Below, piece after piece: positions 39,609 to 46,567 of a stretch of DNA of 64,000 nucleotides. Within the stretch, counting starts at the first letter, position 1. Each line of letters opens with the position of its first letter. The stretch covers positions 2,728,001-2,792,000 of the forward strand of contig NZ_CP108513.1 in assembly GCF_035989285.1 (NCBI RefSeq). Reading direction: 5' to 3'. The position numbers were made by a program, and so were the translations under genes. The notes beneath the pieces are model-generated. The model was not told where the DNA came from, made no database searches, and was given only the letters and a program-made list of their open reading frames with translations. Source of the stretch: Streptomyces sp. NBC_01235. GTDB taxonomy: Bacteria > Actinomycetota > Actinomycetes > Streptomycetales > Streptomycetaceae.

Positions 39609-39823
39609 GCTGCTTCCTCCCGCTGTCACTGCTGCTGGTCCCCTTCATCCTCCCTCTCCCCCACGCCACCGCCCAAGACCGGTCCCGGCCCGTCACACGC
39701 CGTTCACGCCGAACGCGGCTGCGGGCCGGTGGGTCGGCGGGCCGCCCGTGATCGGGGCACCCCGGAAAGCCTGGTAATGTTTACGTCGTCGCCGCGAGGG
39801 AAACCCCGCACGACAGACACCTT

Positions 39824-39908
39824 GTCCGGGTGGCGGAATGGCAGACGCGCTAGCTTGAGGTGCTAGTGCCCTTTATCGGGCGTGGGGGTTCAAGTCCCCC
39901 CTCGGACA
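39824..39908 (+). tRNA. tRNA-Leu (anticodon GAG)
   Basis: An 85-nt class II tRNA: acceptor GTCCGGG pairs with CTCGGAC (one G-T pair); anticodon stem CTAGC/GCTAG with loop TTGAGGT, giving anticodon GAG; a variable arm (TGCCCTTTATCGGGCG) and T-arm (GGGGGTTCAAGTCCCCC). It reads CUC and CUU codons. CCA is not encoded. The ORF on the opposite strand (39850-40764) ends inside this gene. Confidence 0.95.
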
Positions 39909-40764
39909 CAGAACCAGAGAGGGTGGTTCCGGCCAGTGGGCCGGGGCCACCCTCTCCGGCATGCCGGACGAGCAGCTCGGGGCCCAGAGCCCACAGCTCG
40001 TGACGCTCGTACACGCGCCGTACGGCGACGCGCAGGGCGGAGGCCGGCAGGTCGGGCACGCCGGAGGGCCACTCCCGGGTCGGGATCCCCTCCACGAGCC
40101 GCCGGTCCACGAACTCGTCCGACTCCGCCGGCCGAGCGAGGAAGTTCTCCACCGCCGGCAGCTGCCGCGGGGCCCTGGGCGCCACCAGCCAGTGGAGGAG
40201 CCGGGGGGCCACACGCAGGGCCCGGGCCTCCAGATGGGTCTCGATGCCGCGGTCGGTGTCCATCGGCCGGGACCGCGGCAGAAGGCGCTCGTACAGCAGC
40301 ACCCGGCACAGCTCGCCCATCTCCGCGCCGGTGTACTCGCGTTCCCCCAGCACGCCGGGGACGAGGTTCTGGGCCTGGCAGTTCAGTCGCCGTCCGAGGA
40401 TGTGGACGAGGTGGGTCACCGACGCCTCGCTCAGGAGTCTGTGGCGCAGGGTCATGCGCAGGTCACGGGCGTGGGGGCCGTGCGGATCGCGCAACCGCCC
40501 GACCAGTTCGTCGCGGACCCGGTCTCCCATCGGCCGCCTCGTCCTGGGGCGCTTCCTGATCCTCGGGGTGGGGAGCTCGTTCAGGAAGCGGGTGTCGCGC
40601 GCCTCCCTCAGGATCGCGTCGCGCTCCCGTTCCGATCGCCGCGTGGGGGGCTTCCCGCCGGTACGGGTCGCTCGGCGGCGTGCTGACGGCAGGGGCGCTC
40701 GAGCCTGGGCGGGACCGCCGGGGGGAGCGGCCGGGCGGGCCCGCCGAGCCCCGTACTTCCACAC
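39850..40764 (-). CDS. Unknown basic protein whose ORF runs into tRNA-Leu
   Basis: An open frame of about 304 residues on the minus strand has third-position GC near 95% in its middle (for example around AQNLVPGVLGEREYTGAE), as real genes here do, yet its last 20 codons are antisense to tRNA-Leu. It is Arg-rich at the N-terminus and helical in the middle (RDELVGRLRDPHGPHAR, EMGELCRVLLYERLLPR, APRLLHWLVAP). I recognise no family. GTG 40764 is the longest start; ATG 40530 (MGDRVRDEL) is another. The true C-terminus may have been replaced at the tRNA, as happens where elements integrate. Confidence 0.5.
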   Translation of the reverse strand: MWKYGARRARPAAPPGGPAQARAPLPSARRRATRTGGKPPTRRSERERDAILREARDTRFLNELPTPRIRKRPRTRRPMGDRVRDELVGRLRDPHGPHARDLRMTLRHRLLSEASVTHLVHILGRRLNCQAQNLVPGVLGEREYTGAEMGELCRVLLYERLLPRSRPMDTDRGIETHLEARALRVAPRLLHWLVAPRAPRQLPAVENFLARPAESDEFVDRRLVEGIPTREWPSGVPDLPASALRVAVRRVYERHELWALGPELLVRHAGEGGPGPLAGTTLSGSVSEGGLEPPRPIKGTSTSS

Positions 40765-41270
40765 TCGTCAAGCACTTGCAGTTGGCGCTGCCCGTCACCC
40801 GCATCGCCCCCGTCCTGCGTGAATGGGCGTCAGCATTGCGGAATCCGGAGGGACTGGATGTAGCCGTTCACATGATGCGACGCTCGAGCGGGAGCATGTC
40901 TGAGAGCACGCGCCCCAGGCGCACGGACTGTCCCCGGCTTCACCGCTCCACGCCCCCACAAAGCGGGCTCGAACACTGCGCGGTGACGATGTGTCAGGCC
41001 GTGCCGCGAATGGGCGATCCCCGGTCGAATCGGGCGTCCTCCCGCCGATGTGGGGCAACTCTCGCCGTCGCACGGTTCGCCCAGGTCAGGGCGTTGCCGA
41101 CGGTCTGACCTCGATCCCCGAACGGCCGCCCCAAGTGGCCGACGCAGGGGGGCGACACTAGCGTCGTACTAAAATTTCCGGCTTGTTACGGAGCTGGACC
41201 GGACAACCCCAGGCAGACCTGCGGGCCCGCCGGCGCCCCGGAGGCTTCCGGGATCGAGACGCGAGGACCG
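40765..41270. other. Intergenic region before the NRPS gene
   Basis: About 500 bp without a convincing gene in either strand; the ORFs here are short and lack the local codon bias. It should contain the promoter of the NRPS/peptidase operon. Base composition is lower in GC near 40835-40900 and 41160-41185. No repeat or hairpin stands out. Confidence 0.45.
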
Positions 41271-44200
41271 ATGGCAGCCATACACGAGAGCAGTGCTCTC
41301 GGCCTGCTCGACGACGAAATCCGCGCACAACTCGGCGACCGCGCCCGCTTCTCCGGCGGCCCCGCCGCCTCTCCGCGCACCCTCGTGGACGTCTTCGACG
41401 CGTCCGTGCGGTCCTACCCGGACGAGCTCGCCCTGGACGACGGCACCACGCCCCTCACCTACCGCGCCCTCGCCGTCGAGGTGGAGAACCTCCGGCGCCG
41501 GCTCGCCGCCGCCGGGGTCGGCCTCGGCGACCGGGTGGGCGTCCGCGTCCCGTCCGGCACCAACGACCTCTATGTGGCGATCCTGGCCGTCCTCGCCGTC
41601 GGCGCGGCCTACGTCCCGGTGGACGCCGAGGACCCCGACGAGCGGGCCGAGCTGGTGTTCGGTGAGGCGGACGTACGGGCCGTCCTCGGCGCCGGGCACG
41701 CGATCGCCGTCCACGGCACGTCCGAGGCGGCCGCCGGCCGGCCGGGCACCGAGCACGACGCGTGGATCATCTTCACCTCCGGCTCCACCGGGAAGCCGAA
41801 GGGCGTCGCGGTCAGTCACCGCAGCGCCGCGGCCTTCGTGGATGCCGAGGCCGCGCTGTTCCTCACCGACGAGCCGATCGGGCCCGGTGACCGGGTCATG
41901 GCGGGGCTGTCGGTGGCCTTCGACGCCTCCTGCGAGGAGATGTGGCTGGCCTGGCGGTACGGGGCCTGTCTGGTGCCCGTGCCGCGCTCGCAGGTCAGGA
42001 GCGGTGCCGATCTCGGGCCGTGGCTGGTCGAGCAGGAGATCACCGTGGTCTCCACCGTGCCGACACTGGCCGCGCTCTGGGAGCCCGAGACCCTCGACGA
42101 GGTACGGCTGCTGATCTTCGGCGGCGAGGCCTGCCCGCCCGAGCTGGTGCAGCGGCTGGTGACGGAGGGCCGGGAGGTCTGGAACACGTACGGGCCGACC
42201 GAGGCGACCGTGGTCGCCTGTGCCTCGCTGATGTCCGGCGAGGAGCCGATCCGGATCGGGCTGCCGCTCAGGGGCTGGGAACTGGCCGTCGTCGACGAGG
42301 CCGGGGAACCCGTACCGATGGGCGGCAGCGGCCAGCTGGTGATCGGCGGGGTCGGACTCGCGCGGTATCTCGACGCCGAGAAGGACGCGGAGAAGTACGC
42401 GCCGCTGAAGTCGCTGGGCTGGGAGCGGGCGTACCGCAGCGGTGACCTGGTGCGCGCCGACGCCGACGGGCTCGTCTTCCTCGGACGGGCCGACGAGCAG
42501 ATCAAGCTCGGCGGGCGGCGGATCGAGCTGGGCGAGGTGGACGCGGCACTCCAGGCGCTGCCGGGCGTCGCGGGCGCCGCTGCCGCCGTGCGGACCGCGC
42601 GCAGCGGCAACCAGCTGCTGGTCGGGTATGTCGTCACGCAGGACGGCTGGGACCGGGCGGCGGCCGTGGAACGGCTGCGGGCCGAGCTGCCCGCCGCCCT
42701 CGTCCCGCTGCTGGCGCCGGTCGAGGACCTGCCGACCCGCACCTCCGGCAAGGTCGACCGCAACGCCCTGCCGTGGCCCCTGGAGGGCCTGGAGACGGGC
42801 GGGCCGGCCGAGCAGCTCTACGGCACCGAGGCGTGGCTTGCCGAGCAGTGGACAGAAGTCCTCGGCATCCCCGTGGGCCGTGCCCGCGACGACTTCTTCG
42901 CGATCGGCGGCAGCAGCCTCGCCGCCGCCCAGCTGACGACGCGGCTGCGCACCCGCTACCCGAGCGCCGCCGTCCTCGACATCTATCAGCAGCCCACCGT
43001 GCGCAAGCTGGCCCGGCACCTGGAGGAGTCCGCGCAGGACGACGGGTCGGCCCGGGTCATCGCCCCGGTGCCGCCGCGCGCCAAGGTCACCCAGCTCCTG
43101 CTGCTCCTTCCACTGTTCACCCTGCTGGGGCTGCGCTGGACGGTGCCGCTGACCGTCCTCGGGAACCTGCTGCCCGCGTACGGCTGGCTGCCGACCGCCC
43201 CCTGGTGGCTGGTGGTGTCCGGTGCCCTGCTGCTGTTCAGCCCGCCCGGACGGCTCGCGATCGCCGCGGGCGGGGCGCGGCTGCTGCTGCGCGGTGTGCA
43301 GCCGGGGCGGTACCCGCGCGGTGGGAGCGTGCATCTGCGGCTGTGGACGGCGGAGCGGCTGGCCGAGTTCAGCGGGGCGACCTCACTGACCGGGTCCTGG
43401 CTGGAGCGGTACGCGCGGGCGCTGGGCGCCAAGGTCGGGCCGGATGTGGACCTGCACTCGCTGCCGCCGGTCACCGGCCTGCTGAAGCTGGGCCGGGGTG
43501 CGGCCGTGGAGTCCGAGGTGGACCTGTCCGGCCACTGGCTGGACGGTGACCGGCTGGAGATCGGCCAGGTCAAGGTGGGTGCGCACGCCGTGGTCGGCAC
43601 GCGCAGCATGCTGTTCCCGGGCGCCCGGGTGGGCAAGCGGGCCGAGGTGGCGCCGGGTTCGGCGGTCACCGGTCAGATCCCCACCGGTCAGCGGTGGTCG
43701 GGGGCGCCCGCGGTCAAGCTCGGCAAGGCCAAGCGCAACTGGCCCAAGGAACGGCCGGCGCGGGGCACGTACTGGCGGGTGATGTACGGCCTGGCCGGTT
43801 TCGCGCTGACCTCGCTGCCGGTGCTGGCGGCGGGCGCGGCCCTGCTGGTGGCGAGCCTGTTCGTGGCGCCGGGCGACGGGCTCGGCGAGGCGCTGAAGGG
43901 CGCCGCGCTCGCCCTGGTGCCGGCCACGCTCGCCTTCGGGCTGGCGTACTGCGTGATGCTGCTGATCGCCGTGCGGCTGCTGAGCCTCGGCCTGCGCGAG
44001 GGCACGCATCCCACGCACAGCAGGATCGGCTGGCAGGCGTGGGCCGTCACCCAGCTCATGGACCGCTCGCGGGAGACCCTCTTCCCGCTGTACGCCGGGC
44101 TGGTCACGCCGGTGTGGCTGCGGCTGCTCGGGATGCGGATCGGCAAGGGCGCCGAGGTGTCGACGGTCCTCGCGCTGCCCAGCCTGACCACGGTCGGCGA

Positions 44201-45137
44201 GGGCGCGTTCCTGGCCGACGACACACTGACCGCGCCGTACGAGCTCGGTGGCGGCTGGATGCGGATCGGGCGGGCGGAGATCGGGCGGCGGGCGTTCCTC
44301 GGCAACTCGGGGATGACCGCGCCGGGGCGCAGCGTGCCGGACGGCGGCCTGGTGGGTGTGCTGTCGGCGACGCCGAAGAAGGCGAAGAAGGGCAGCTCGT
44401 ACCTGGGGCTGCCGCCGGTGAAGCTGCCGCGGAACACCACCGACGGCGATCAGAGCCGGACCTACGAGCCGCCCGCGCGGCTGCTGTGGGCGCGCGCCCT
44501 GGTGGAGCTGTGCCGGATCGTGCCGGTGTTCTGCTCGGCGGGGCTGGCCGTGCTGACGGTGGCGGCGCTGTGCGCGCTGGGCGCCTGGGCGCCGCTGCTG
44601 TCCGGGCTCGTGCTGCTCGGGGCGGGTGCGGCGGCGGCTCTCGTCTCGATCGTGGCCAAGTGGCTGCTCGTCGGACGGCACCACAGCGGGGAGCATCCGC
44701 TGTGGAGCGGTTTCGTGTGGCGCAACGAGCTGGCGGACACGTTCGTCGAGGTGGTGGCCGTGCCGTGGCTGGCGGGCGCCGTGCCGGGCACGCCGGTGCT
44801 GACGGCGTGGCTGCGCGGGCTCGGGGCGCGGATCGGCCGGGGCGTGTGGGTGGAGAGCTACTGGCTGCCGGAGTCGGACCTGGTGACGCTGGAGGACGGG
44901 GCGACGGTCAACCGTGGGTGCGTCCTGCAGACTCACCTCTTCCACGACCGGATCTTGCGGACGGATACTGTTGTTCTCCGTGAGGGCGCCACGCTGGGCC
45001 CGGGCGGGATCGTGCTGCCCGGCAGCACGATCGGGGCCCGTACGACCCTGGGTCCCGCGTCGCTCGTCATGGCCGCGGAGTCCGTCCCGGACGACACCCG
45101 CTGGCTCGGCAATCCGATCGAGGCATGGCGTCCCTGA
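41271..45137 (+). CDS. Membrane NRPS resembling epsilon-poly-L-lysine synthetase (Pls)
   Basis: This 1288-residue protein has an adenylation domain (about 38-505; A3 FTSGSTGKPKG near 167, YGPTE near 307, LPTRTSGKVDRNAL), a carrier domain (DDFFAIGGSSL, Ser near 548), then three hydrophobic pairs (about 610-660, 840-905, 1085-1125) separating three left-handed beta-helix, acetyltransferase-like domains. There is no condensation or thioesterase domain. This is the layout of Pls (TIGR02353), which polymerises lysine on the membrane. Specificity residues read by alignment to GrsA are D218, A219, E222 and onward, DAESIGTVVK, close to the lysine code. It overlaps the peptidase gene. ATG 41271 has only a weak ribosome-binding site. 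Confidence 0.88.
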   Translation: MAAIHESSALGLLDDEIRAQLGDRARFSGGPAASPRTLVDVFDASVRSYPDELALDDGTTPLTYRALAVEVENLRRRLAAAGVGLGDRVGVRVPSGTNDLYVAILAVLAVGAAYVPVDAEDPDERAELVFGEADVRAVLGAGHAIAVHGTSEAAAGRPGTEHDAWIIFTSGSTGKPKGVAVSHRSAAAFVDAEAALFLTDEPIGPGDRVMAGLSVAFDASCEEMWLAWRYGACLVPVPRSQVRSGADLGPWLVEQEITVVSTVPTLAALWEPETLDEVRLLIFGGEACPPELVQRLVTEGREVWNTYGPTEATVVACASLMSGEEPIRIGLPLRGWELAVVDEAGEPVPMGGSGQLVIGGVGLARYLDAEKDAEKYAPLKSLGWERAYRSGDLVRADADGLVFLGRADEQIKLGGRRIELGEVDAALQALPGVAGAAAAVRTARSGNQLLVGYVVTQDGWDRAAAVERLRAELPAALVPLLAPVEDLPTRTSGKVDRNALPWPLEGLETGGPAEQLYGTEAWLAEQWTEVLGIPVGRARDDFFAIGGSSLAAAQLTTRLRTRYPSAAVLDIYQQPTVRKLARHLEESAQDDGSARVIAPVPPRAKVTQLLLLLPLFTLLGLRWTVPLTVLGNLLPAYGWLPTAPWWLVVSGALLLFSPPGRLAIAAGGARLLLRGVQPGRYPRGGSVHLRLWTAERLAEFSGATSLTGSWLERYARALGAKVGPDVDLHSLPPVTGLLKLGRGAAVESEVDLSGHWLDGDRLEIGQVKVGAHAVVGTRSMLFPGARVGKRAEVAPGSAVTGQIPTGQRWSGAPAVKLGKAKRNWPKERPARGTYWRVMYGLAGFALTSLPVLAAGAALLVASLFVAPGDGLGEALKGAALALVPATLAFGLAYCVMLLIAVRLLSLGLREGTHPTHSRIGWQAWAVTQLMDRSRETLFPLYAGLVTPVWLRLLGMRIGKGAEVSTVLALPSLTTVGEGAFLADDTLTAPYELGGGWMRIGRAEIGRRAFLGNSGMTAPGRSVPDGGLVGVLSATPKKAKKGSSYLGLPPVKLPRNTTDGDQSRTYEPPARLLWARALVELCRIVPVFCSAGLAVLTVAALCALGAWAPLLSGLVLLGAGAAAALVSIVAKWLLVGRHHSGEHPLWSGFVWRNELADTFVEVVAVPWLAGAVPGTPVLTAWLRGLGARIGRGVWVESYWLPESDLVTLEDGATVNRGCVLQTHLFHDRILRTDTVVLREGATLGPGGIVLPGSTIGARTTLGPASLVMAAESVPDDTRWLGNPIEAWRP

Positions 45138-46567
45138 GGGCGGGCCACCCGGAGCCGGCGGGCGGTGCGCCGGCGTCGGGCGGTTCGAGCACAGGTCAGG
45201 GAGCGGACGGGGAAGTGGCAGTTCAGCAGGCGGTTGGTCCGGACCCGTACTTTCCGGGCAACGGTGACTCCCGGTACCGGGTGCACCGCTACGAGCTCGC
45301 GCTGGACTACCGGCCCGGGCCGAACCGGCTGTCGGGCACGGCCCGGATCAACGCCATAGCCGGGCGGTCGCCGCTCTCCGAGTTCCAGCTGAATCTGGCC
45401 GACTTCAAGATCGGCCGGGTCCGCGTGGACGGGCGTCAGCCGCACTACACGCACCGGGGCGGCAGGCTGCGCGTGCGTCCCGCCAAGCCGATCCGCGCCG
45501 GGGCCGCCTTCACGGTGGAGGTGCACTGGTCGGGCAACCCGAAGCCGGTGAACAGCCCCTGGGGCGGGATCGGCTGGGAGGAGCTGGGTGACGGGGCGCT
45601 GGTGGCGAGCCAGCCCGTCGGGGCGCCGTCCTGGTACCCGTGCAACGACCGGCCGGCGGACAAGGCGTCGTACCTGATCTCGATCACGACCCCGTCGTCG
45701 TACTCGGTGGTGGCGGGCGGTCGGCTGCTGACGCGGACCACGAAGGCCTCGACGACCACGTGGGTGTACGAGCAGGCGGCGCCGACGTCGAGCTATCTGG
45801 TCGGGCTGTCGATCGGCAAGTACCAGACGGTCCTGCTGGGCGATCCGGGTCTCGGCGGCGTCCCGCAGCACGGGCATATTCCGGCGCACCTGCTGGCGGA
45901 GTTCTCGCGGGACTTCGCGCGCCAGCCCGGGATGATGCACCTCTTCCAACAGCTCTTCGGGCCCTACCCGTTCGACGAGTACGCGGTGGTGGTGACGGAG
46001 GAGGAGCTCGATGTCCCCGTCGAGGCACAGGGGTTGTCGCTGTTCGGTGCCAACCATGTGGACGGGGCGCGGGGTTCGGAGCGACTCGTGGCGCACGAGC
46101 TGGCGCACCAGTGGTTCGGCAACAGCGTGTCCATCGCCGACTGGCGGCACATCTGGCTGAACGAGGGGTTCGCGAAGTACGCGGAGTGGCTGTGGTCGGA
46201 GCGGTCGGGTGGCCGCAGCGCGCAGCAACTCGCCGCCGTCGCCCACCGGTTGCTGTCCGGGCAGCCGCAGGACCTGCGCCTGGCCGACCCCGGCCGCAAG
46301 TCGATGTTCGACGACCGGCTCTACGAGCGCGGCGGCCTCACCGTGCACGCGCTGCGCTGCGCGCTGGGCGACGAGGTGTTCTTCCGGATGCTGCGCGCCT
46401 GGCTCGGGCTGCACCGGGGCGGGGCGGTGACGACGTCGACGTTCACCGCGCACGCGGCACGCTTCGCACCGGAGCCGCTGGACGACCTGTTCGAGGCGTG
46501 GGTGTACGGGGCGGCCCTGCCACCGCTGCCGGTGCCGTCGATGGCGCGGGGCGCGGAGTCGGCGTAG
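45125..46567 (+). CDS. M1-family zinc aminopeptidase next to the Pls-like gene
   Basis: This 480-residue M1 enzyme has the zinc motif HELAHQWFGN near residue 324 and the third ligand Glu in LNEGFAKYAEW about 19 residues later; the N-terminal beta domain includes YRVHRYELALDYRP. The ARM-repeat C-terminus of large M1 enzymes is absent, making it short. Its first codons overlap the NRPS stop by 13 nt, so coupling is likely; the start ATG 45125 is not well supported by a ribosome-binding site and could lie further in. By analogy with Pld enzymes of epsilon-polylysine producers it may trim or degrade the product of the neighbouring enzyme. No signal peptide is obvious. Confidence 0.85.
   Translation: MASLRAGHPEPAGGAPASGGSSTGQGADGEVAVQQAVGPDPYFPGNGDSRYRVHRYELALDYRPGPNRLSGTARINAIAGRSPLSEFQLNLADFKIGRVRVDGRQPHYTHRGGRLRVRPAKPIRAGAAFTVEVHWSGNPKPVNSPWGGIGWEELGDGALVASQPVGAPSWYPCNDRPADKASYLISITTPSSYSVVAGGRLLTRTTKASTTTWVYEQAAPTSSYLVGLSIGKYQTVLLGDPGLGGVPQHGHIPAHLLAEFSRDFARQPGMMHLFQQLFGPYPFDEYAVVVTEEELDVPVEAQGLSLFGANHVDGARGSERLVAHELAHQWFGNSVSIADWRHIWLNEGFAKYAEWLWSERSGGRSAQQLAAVAHRLLSGQPQDLRLADPGRKSMFDDRLYERGGLTVHALRCALGDEVFFRMLRAWLGLHRGGAVTTSTFTAHAARFAPEPLDDLFEAWVYGAALPPLPVPSMARGAESA

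Follow-up and report, generated by a model that had tools for sequence, protein, structure and literature searches.

The natural role of epsilon-poly-L-lysine (epsilon-PL), an approved food preservative, is unclear. In Streptomyces albulus, the epsilon-PL synthetase gene pls and the gene pldII lie in one operon with a 4-nt overlap (PMC4361855), and PldII, according to published descriptions, is an aminopeptidase that degrades epsilon-PL and sits outside the membrane (PMC9223678, PMC9205021). An operon of Pls and peptidase is also described from Corynebacterium variabile; its Pls shares 51% identity with Streptomyces Pls and, expressed in S. coelicolor M145 from the S. albulus pls promoter, yields epsilon-PL (PMC8117764). 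Within the wider family, position 2 of the adenylation (A) domain pocket is Ala in Pls (lysine), Met in PosA (ornithine), and Phe in the PDAP/PDAB synthetases (diaminopropionate/diaminobutyrate) (PMC10522769). Here we describe a synthetase-peptidase gene pair from Streptomyces sp. NBC_01235, whose genome is a single contig of 11.09 Mb. The pair lies in a window of 64,000 nucleotides (NZ_CP108513.1, positions 2,728,001 to 2,792,000; coordinates below count from the first letter of the window).

The locus is a pls-pldII-type operon, a kind of system already known from S. albulus. Taking its observed architecture, pocket identity, conserved gene pair, and phylogenetic position together with the published homologues, we assign a probability of about 0.86 to the reading that a lysine-activating Pls makes epsilon-PL and that the M1 peptidase hydrolyses this polymer.

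Architecture, substrate pocket, and gene pair

The synthetase scores above the cut-off of TIGR02353 ("Pls/PosA family non-ribosomal peptide synthetase," NCBIfam; Table 1) and is the sole protein in its genome to do so among 16 candidates, all scored. Pfam matches comprise AMP-binding, PP-binding, and the hexapeptide repeat, with AMP-binding_C slightly under its cut-off (23.6 versus 24.5 bits); the Pfam scan of the 1288-residue protein returned neither a condensation (C) nor a thioesterase (TE) domain. The phosphopantetheine serine of the thiolation (T), or carrier, domain is conserved in 114 of 114 aligned proteins.

A structure model of residues 600–1288, built from an alignment of 34 sequences (mean predicted local distance difference test [pLDDT] 83.4, predicted template modeling score [pTM] 0.86), contains two clear membrane helix pairs and three runs of short β-helix strands. 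The third hydrophobic helical stretch (model residues 470–534) is long and forms no clean pair by DSSP. The best PDB matches of this model are left-handed β-helix acetyltransferases, a comparison that probed mainly the first unit (model residues 66–228) and is uninformative about the other units. An earlier, sequence-only reading of this DNA had proposed A and T domains, three β-helix units, three hydrophobic pairs, and no C or TE domain; the layout stands, with two of the pairs clear in the predicted structure and the third less so. The protein has the A-T-(transmembrane, C1–C3) architecture of Pls.

The pocket reads DAESIGTVVK and is identical at 10 of 10 positions to that of 7wew, the A domain of the S. 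albulus epsilon-PL synthase (positions were assigned by motif, from GrsA numbering). It is the closest solved structure to our A domain, at 67.2% identity over 472 positions. The same ten letters occur in all 80 named relatives of the synthetase. Over 115 aligned proteins, which include the window protein and 7wew and omit 7 of 121 that are shorter than 1050 residues (L203–L209), 111 carry DAESIGTVVK, one DAESVGTVVK, and three the PDAP/PDAB-like DFECLSVVTK. Position 2 of the window pocket is Ala219, neither the Met of PosA nor the Phe of PDAP/PDAB. The specificity letters first read from the sequence are therefore borne out by alignment, and the pocket is of lysine type rather than that of a neutral amino acid; by analogy with 7wew, the A domain would adenylate L-lysine.

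The lengths, coordinates, and 13-nt overlap of the two open reading frames are as first noted, and the start codon at this overlap is the one chosen in 39 of 63 peptidase genes of the window lineage (defined below) under the start-choice rule of this analysis. An M1 relative lies directly 3′ of the synthetase on the same strand in 80/80 named relatives, which are mostly from Streptomyces with best-segment identities of up to 95%; the neighbor, whose absence would have counted against the reading, is thus kept in close relatives. The window peptidase matches Peptidase_M1 at 92.9 bits (Pfam), with HELAH at residues 324–328 and a Glu 18 residues later, and so shares with PldII both the HEXXH(x18)E signature and a gene overlapping the 3′ end of pls. 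It is 47% identical to its counterpart in L178, an S. albulus-type locus whose M1 gene starts at a 4-nt overlap with the synthetase, an arrangement that matches the published pls-pldII operon (PMC4361855). A degrading aminopeptidase beside pls had been anticipated, and one is present, but its published counterpart is PldII rather than the Pld first named (PMC4361855).

Table 1. Features of the operon, in window coordinates
Feature	Position	Strand	Details
pls-type NRPS-like (non-ribosomal peptide synthetase-like) homopolymer synthetase	41271..45137	+	1288 aa; TIGR02353 858.5 bits versus 423.1 cut-off; 7wew best PDB match
Adenylation domain	41394..42770	+	~residues 42-500; pocket D218 A219 E222 S261 I282 G284 T306 V314 V315 K494
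Thiolation (carrier) domain	42834..43022	+	residues 522-584; phosphopantetheine Ser549
Putative C-terminal polymerisation region	43086..45119	+	residues 606-1283; three predicted units of transmembrane helices plus left-handed β-helix
M1 metallopeptidase, PldII-like	45125..46567	+	480 aa; HELAH(x18)E; no recognisable N-terminal export signal
Conserved promoter-like element TANNNT-N(3-7)-GNTTGT	41170..41186	+	~100 nt before start codon

Lineages of the synthetase and their distribution

In a tree of 67 proteins built by maximum likelihood (quick search, SH-aLRT support, midpoint root for drawing only), 64 Pls-pocket proteins, the window protein among them, stand apart from the three with a PDAP/PDAB pocket, so that the window synthetase falls with Pls and not in a non-Pls subfamily. 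L178, whose A domain is 93.6% identical to 7wew, stands with its kin for the S. albulus lineage; 7wew itself and the fungal, Kitasatospora aureofaciens, and C. variabile Pls are outside the tree. This lineage comprises 12 Streptomyces-genus proteins with support of 90 (100 without L195). The window protein, 56.8% identical to the L178 synthetase over its full length, lies in another part of the tree with proteins of Kitasatospora, Actinacidiphila, Micromonosporaceae, and Pseudonocardiaceae. Support at several deep forks is only 86–93.

The 7wew chain found a Pls-type A domain at E ≤ 1e-150 in at least 167 of 392 Streptomyces-genus genomes (at most four candidates were scored in each). About 24 of the 167 carry an S. 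albulus-lineage copy (23 by best-match identity of at least 74%, and G539 by tree), the remaining matched genomes being only partly placed on the tree. As far as these placements go, the window protein appears to belong to the commoner lineage. Two matches occur in seven of the 392 genomes, one at least 74% identical to 7wew and a second; for four of these genomes (G580, G516, G146, and G433) the tree bears out that both lineages are represented, by one copy each. The C-terminal family model, whose counts take in proteins without an A domain, exceeds its cut-off in 110/199 genomes of the genus and 10/198 of a phylum sample. We found no paper on the split between the two lineages, in a search that was not aimed at the export signal and left subscription journals mostly uncovered.

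Some copies depart from the usual layout. An S. albulus-lineage synthetase of G433 (L188, G433:C1:8636000-8650000) has no M1 relative in its 14-kb stretch, unlike the window-lineage copy of the same genome (L189), which has its own. TIGR02353 also matches many Streptomyces-genus open frames of ~810–950 residues, too short for an A domain. The only short one scanned, a protein of 895 residues (L204:6793-9477, minus strand), has the T domain and C-terminal region only, and adjoins a protein (L204:3528-6776, minus strand) that has A, T, and thioesterase domains and matches a condensation domain weakly; the pair looks like a split synthetase. For L203, L206, and L209, the alignment begins at the T domain.

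Peptidase N terminus and upstream element

The two lineages differ at the peptidase N terminus. In the first 70 residues, 11/11 S. albulus-lineage peptidases examined carry a twin-arginine motif with a hydrophobic stretch behind it (a count without L188, where no M1 was found). The motif is present in none of 63 window-lineage peptidases (55 named loci, seven further, and the window) and none of 36 others (25 of them named; 35 readable, L079 being unreadable). The hydrophobicity threshold is reached by 10 of the 11 and by none of the window-lineage or other peptidases. These calls come from hydropathy and motif rather than a trained signal predictor, and other export routes may exist.

The window's own genome encodes six further short-type M1 proteins (L141–L146), 32%–39% identical to the pls-linked enzyme. 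Five have a hydrophobic stretch of at least 1.67 within 70 residues, and L144 has one of 2.17 further in; the pls-linked enzyme is the only short M1 of this genome without an N-terminal hydrophobic stretch (0.11). One of the six has a lipobox-like LTAC, and some may correspond to the exo-type enzyme Pld.

A promoter-like element (Table 1) precedes the synthetase start by 45–190 nt in 49 of 54 named window-lineage loci, against 0.15 expected from mononucleotide shuffles; the 54 are the 55 named loci minus L043, which has a run of N there. The element was found in 0/12 S. albulus-lineage loci and 0/25 other named loci; of 14 further fetched loci, three have it, all of them window-lineage copies. 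Its conservation is partly shared descent, as the loci are related, but by pattern match the element is one that separates the window lineage from that of S. albulus. In L019, L020, L185, L187, and L189 it lies only ~45 nt before the start codon, and the GC-rich stretch that most other relatives have in between is absent from L019 and L020.

Nothing points to a regulon that shares the element: the genome gave 16 matches, versus 33 for a reversed-pattern control. The 16 comprise one that fits a longer form of the pattern exactly, at the locus itself, and 15 at two mismatches. A lysine riboswitch or other known RNA 5′ of the gene was likewise sought, and Rfam returned only a tRNA and a sub-threshold mir-665 (E 0.94) in 39700–41500. 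The tRNA, a tRNA-Leu(gag) at 39824–39909, lies upstream of the operon. Its end is ~270–360 nt from the synthetase start in L008, L018, L022, and L047, ~1.36 kb in the window (39910–41270), and ~4.5 kb in L004; the 39910–41270 stretch may be an insertion site.

Proposed pathway, alternatives, and known systems

We propose that the A domain adenylates L-lysine and loads the carrier domain, and that the membrane-embedded C-terminal region, as a single-chain array of three β-helix units, would condense lysines iteratively through the epsilon-amino group to give epsilon-PL, which the M1 peptidase would then hydrolyse. Lysine activation, isopeptide polymerisation, and epsilon-PL hydrolysis are assigned here by analogy with characterised homologues. 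A cytoplasmic peptidase would act on intracellular polymer, in self-protection or lysine recovery, and not at the cell surface.

Several points weigh against this pathway, or against its resemblance to that of S. albulus. Lacking both a twin-arginine motif and an N-terminal hydrophobic stretch, the window peptidase is predicted to be cytoplasmic, unlike published PldII, which is described on the outer side of the cell membrane. The earlier proposal of a homopolymer of lysine or another basic amino acid fares well on pocket and tree, but any extracellular trimming is doubtful, as no export signal can be recognised in the window peptidase. The lineages may not be redundant, since both coexist in some genomes. 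C. variabile itself gave no detectable epsilon-PL in culture in the published account (PMC8117764), so such an operon can be silent. Evidence for production within the window lineage comes from S. virginiae NRRL ISP-5094, which has one TIGR02353 protein above cut-off (17 candidates, all scored), of the window lineage and 82.0% identical to the window protein. We take this type strain to be IFO12827, an equivalence for which we found no confirmation in the literature; if both numbers denote one strain, a member of the window lineage would make epsilon-PL. IFO12827 is reported in a review to make epsilon-PL and to have high degrading activity (PMC9205021).

The alternative that best withstands these data, unlikely as we judge it, is that the window lineage makes intracellular or short-chain epsilon-PL from which a cytoplasmic peptidase recycles lysine, rather than a secreted antibiotic with a surface peptidase. 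The missing export signal in 63/63 window-lineage peptidases, the distinct conserved upstream element, and the presence of both lineages side by side in some genomes favor it, whereas export without a known signal is possible and the report of S. virginiae as a producer (PMC9205021) suggests that the polymer leaves the cell. Improbable is a second alternative, in which the synthetase makes its polymer but its M1 neighbor, a peptidase of general function, adjoins it for another reason: six more short-type M1 proteins in the genome would suit this view, but same-strand adjacency in every named relative, 47% identity to the S. albulus-lineage neighbor, and degradation of epsilon-PL by S. albulus PldII (PMC9223678, PMC8117764) argue against it. 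Very improbable is a polymer of ornithine, diaminobutyrate, diaminopropionate, or β-lysine: pocket letters predict substrate imperfectly and synthetases for those substrates exist within the family (PMC10522769), but Ala at position 2, full identity to the 7wew pocket, and the separate grouping of the three Phe-type proteins on the tree oppose it, β-lysine synthetases being outside the direct comparison.

The lineage split in upstream element and peptidase export is worth following. A tentative idea, to which we give rather less than an even chance, is that the commonest Streptomyces pls lineage represents a second, mostly unstudied epsilon-PL system with its own promoter element and a cytoplasmic peptidase, in which polymer is cut and recycled inside the cell, and that the industrial S. 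albulus lineage is derived, its peptidase exported through an added twin-arginine signal. Studies of the industrial enzyme seem to cover a minority, given that only about 24 of at least 167 matched genomes carry a copy of its lineage. Should the usual peptidase prove to be cytoplasmic, self-protection by degradation at the surface would apply to that minority alone, and many strains not known as producers could be screened for short-chain or internal polymer.

Among known systems, the PDAP/PDAB synthetases share the TIGR02353 family model with the window protein, but the three proteins with their pocket (L210, L212, and L214) have Phe at position 2; L210 and the window protein share 32.2% identity, and the 16-kb stretches around all three yielded no M1 relative. 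PosA of Acinetobacter baumannii, a delta-poly-L-ornithine synthetase, belongs by name to the same family model, and its C-terminal region is published as a model containing three left-handed β-helices, but it differs in its pocket, DMEHNGTVSK, and in its single-gene operon, both as published (PMC10522769). The C. variabile operon resembles ours, by its published description, in architecture and peptidase neighbor (PMC8117764). The S. albulus pls-pldII operon differs in tree lineage, in sequence (the 56.8% and 47% identities above, measured via L178, for synthetase and peptidase), in an overlap of 4 rather than 13 nt, and, across its lineage, in a twin-arginine signal on the peptidase that the window enzyme lacks and in the upstream element, not found in its 12 loci. 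It nevertheless shares with the window the domain order, all ten pocket residues, and an overlapping M1 gene on the same strand.

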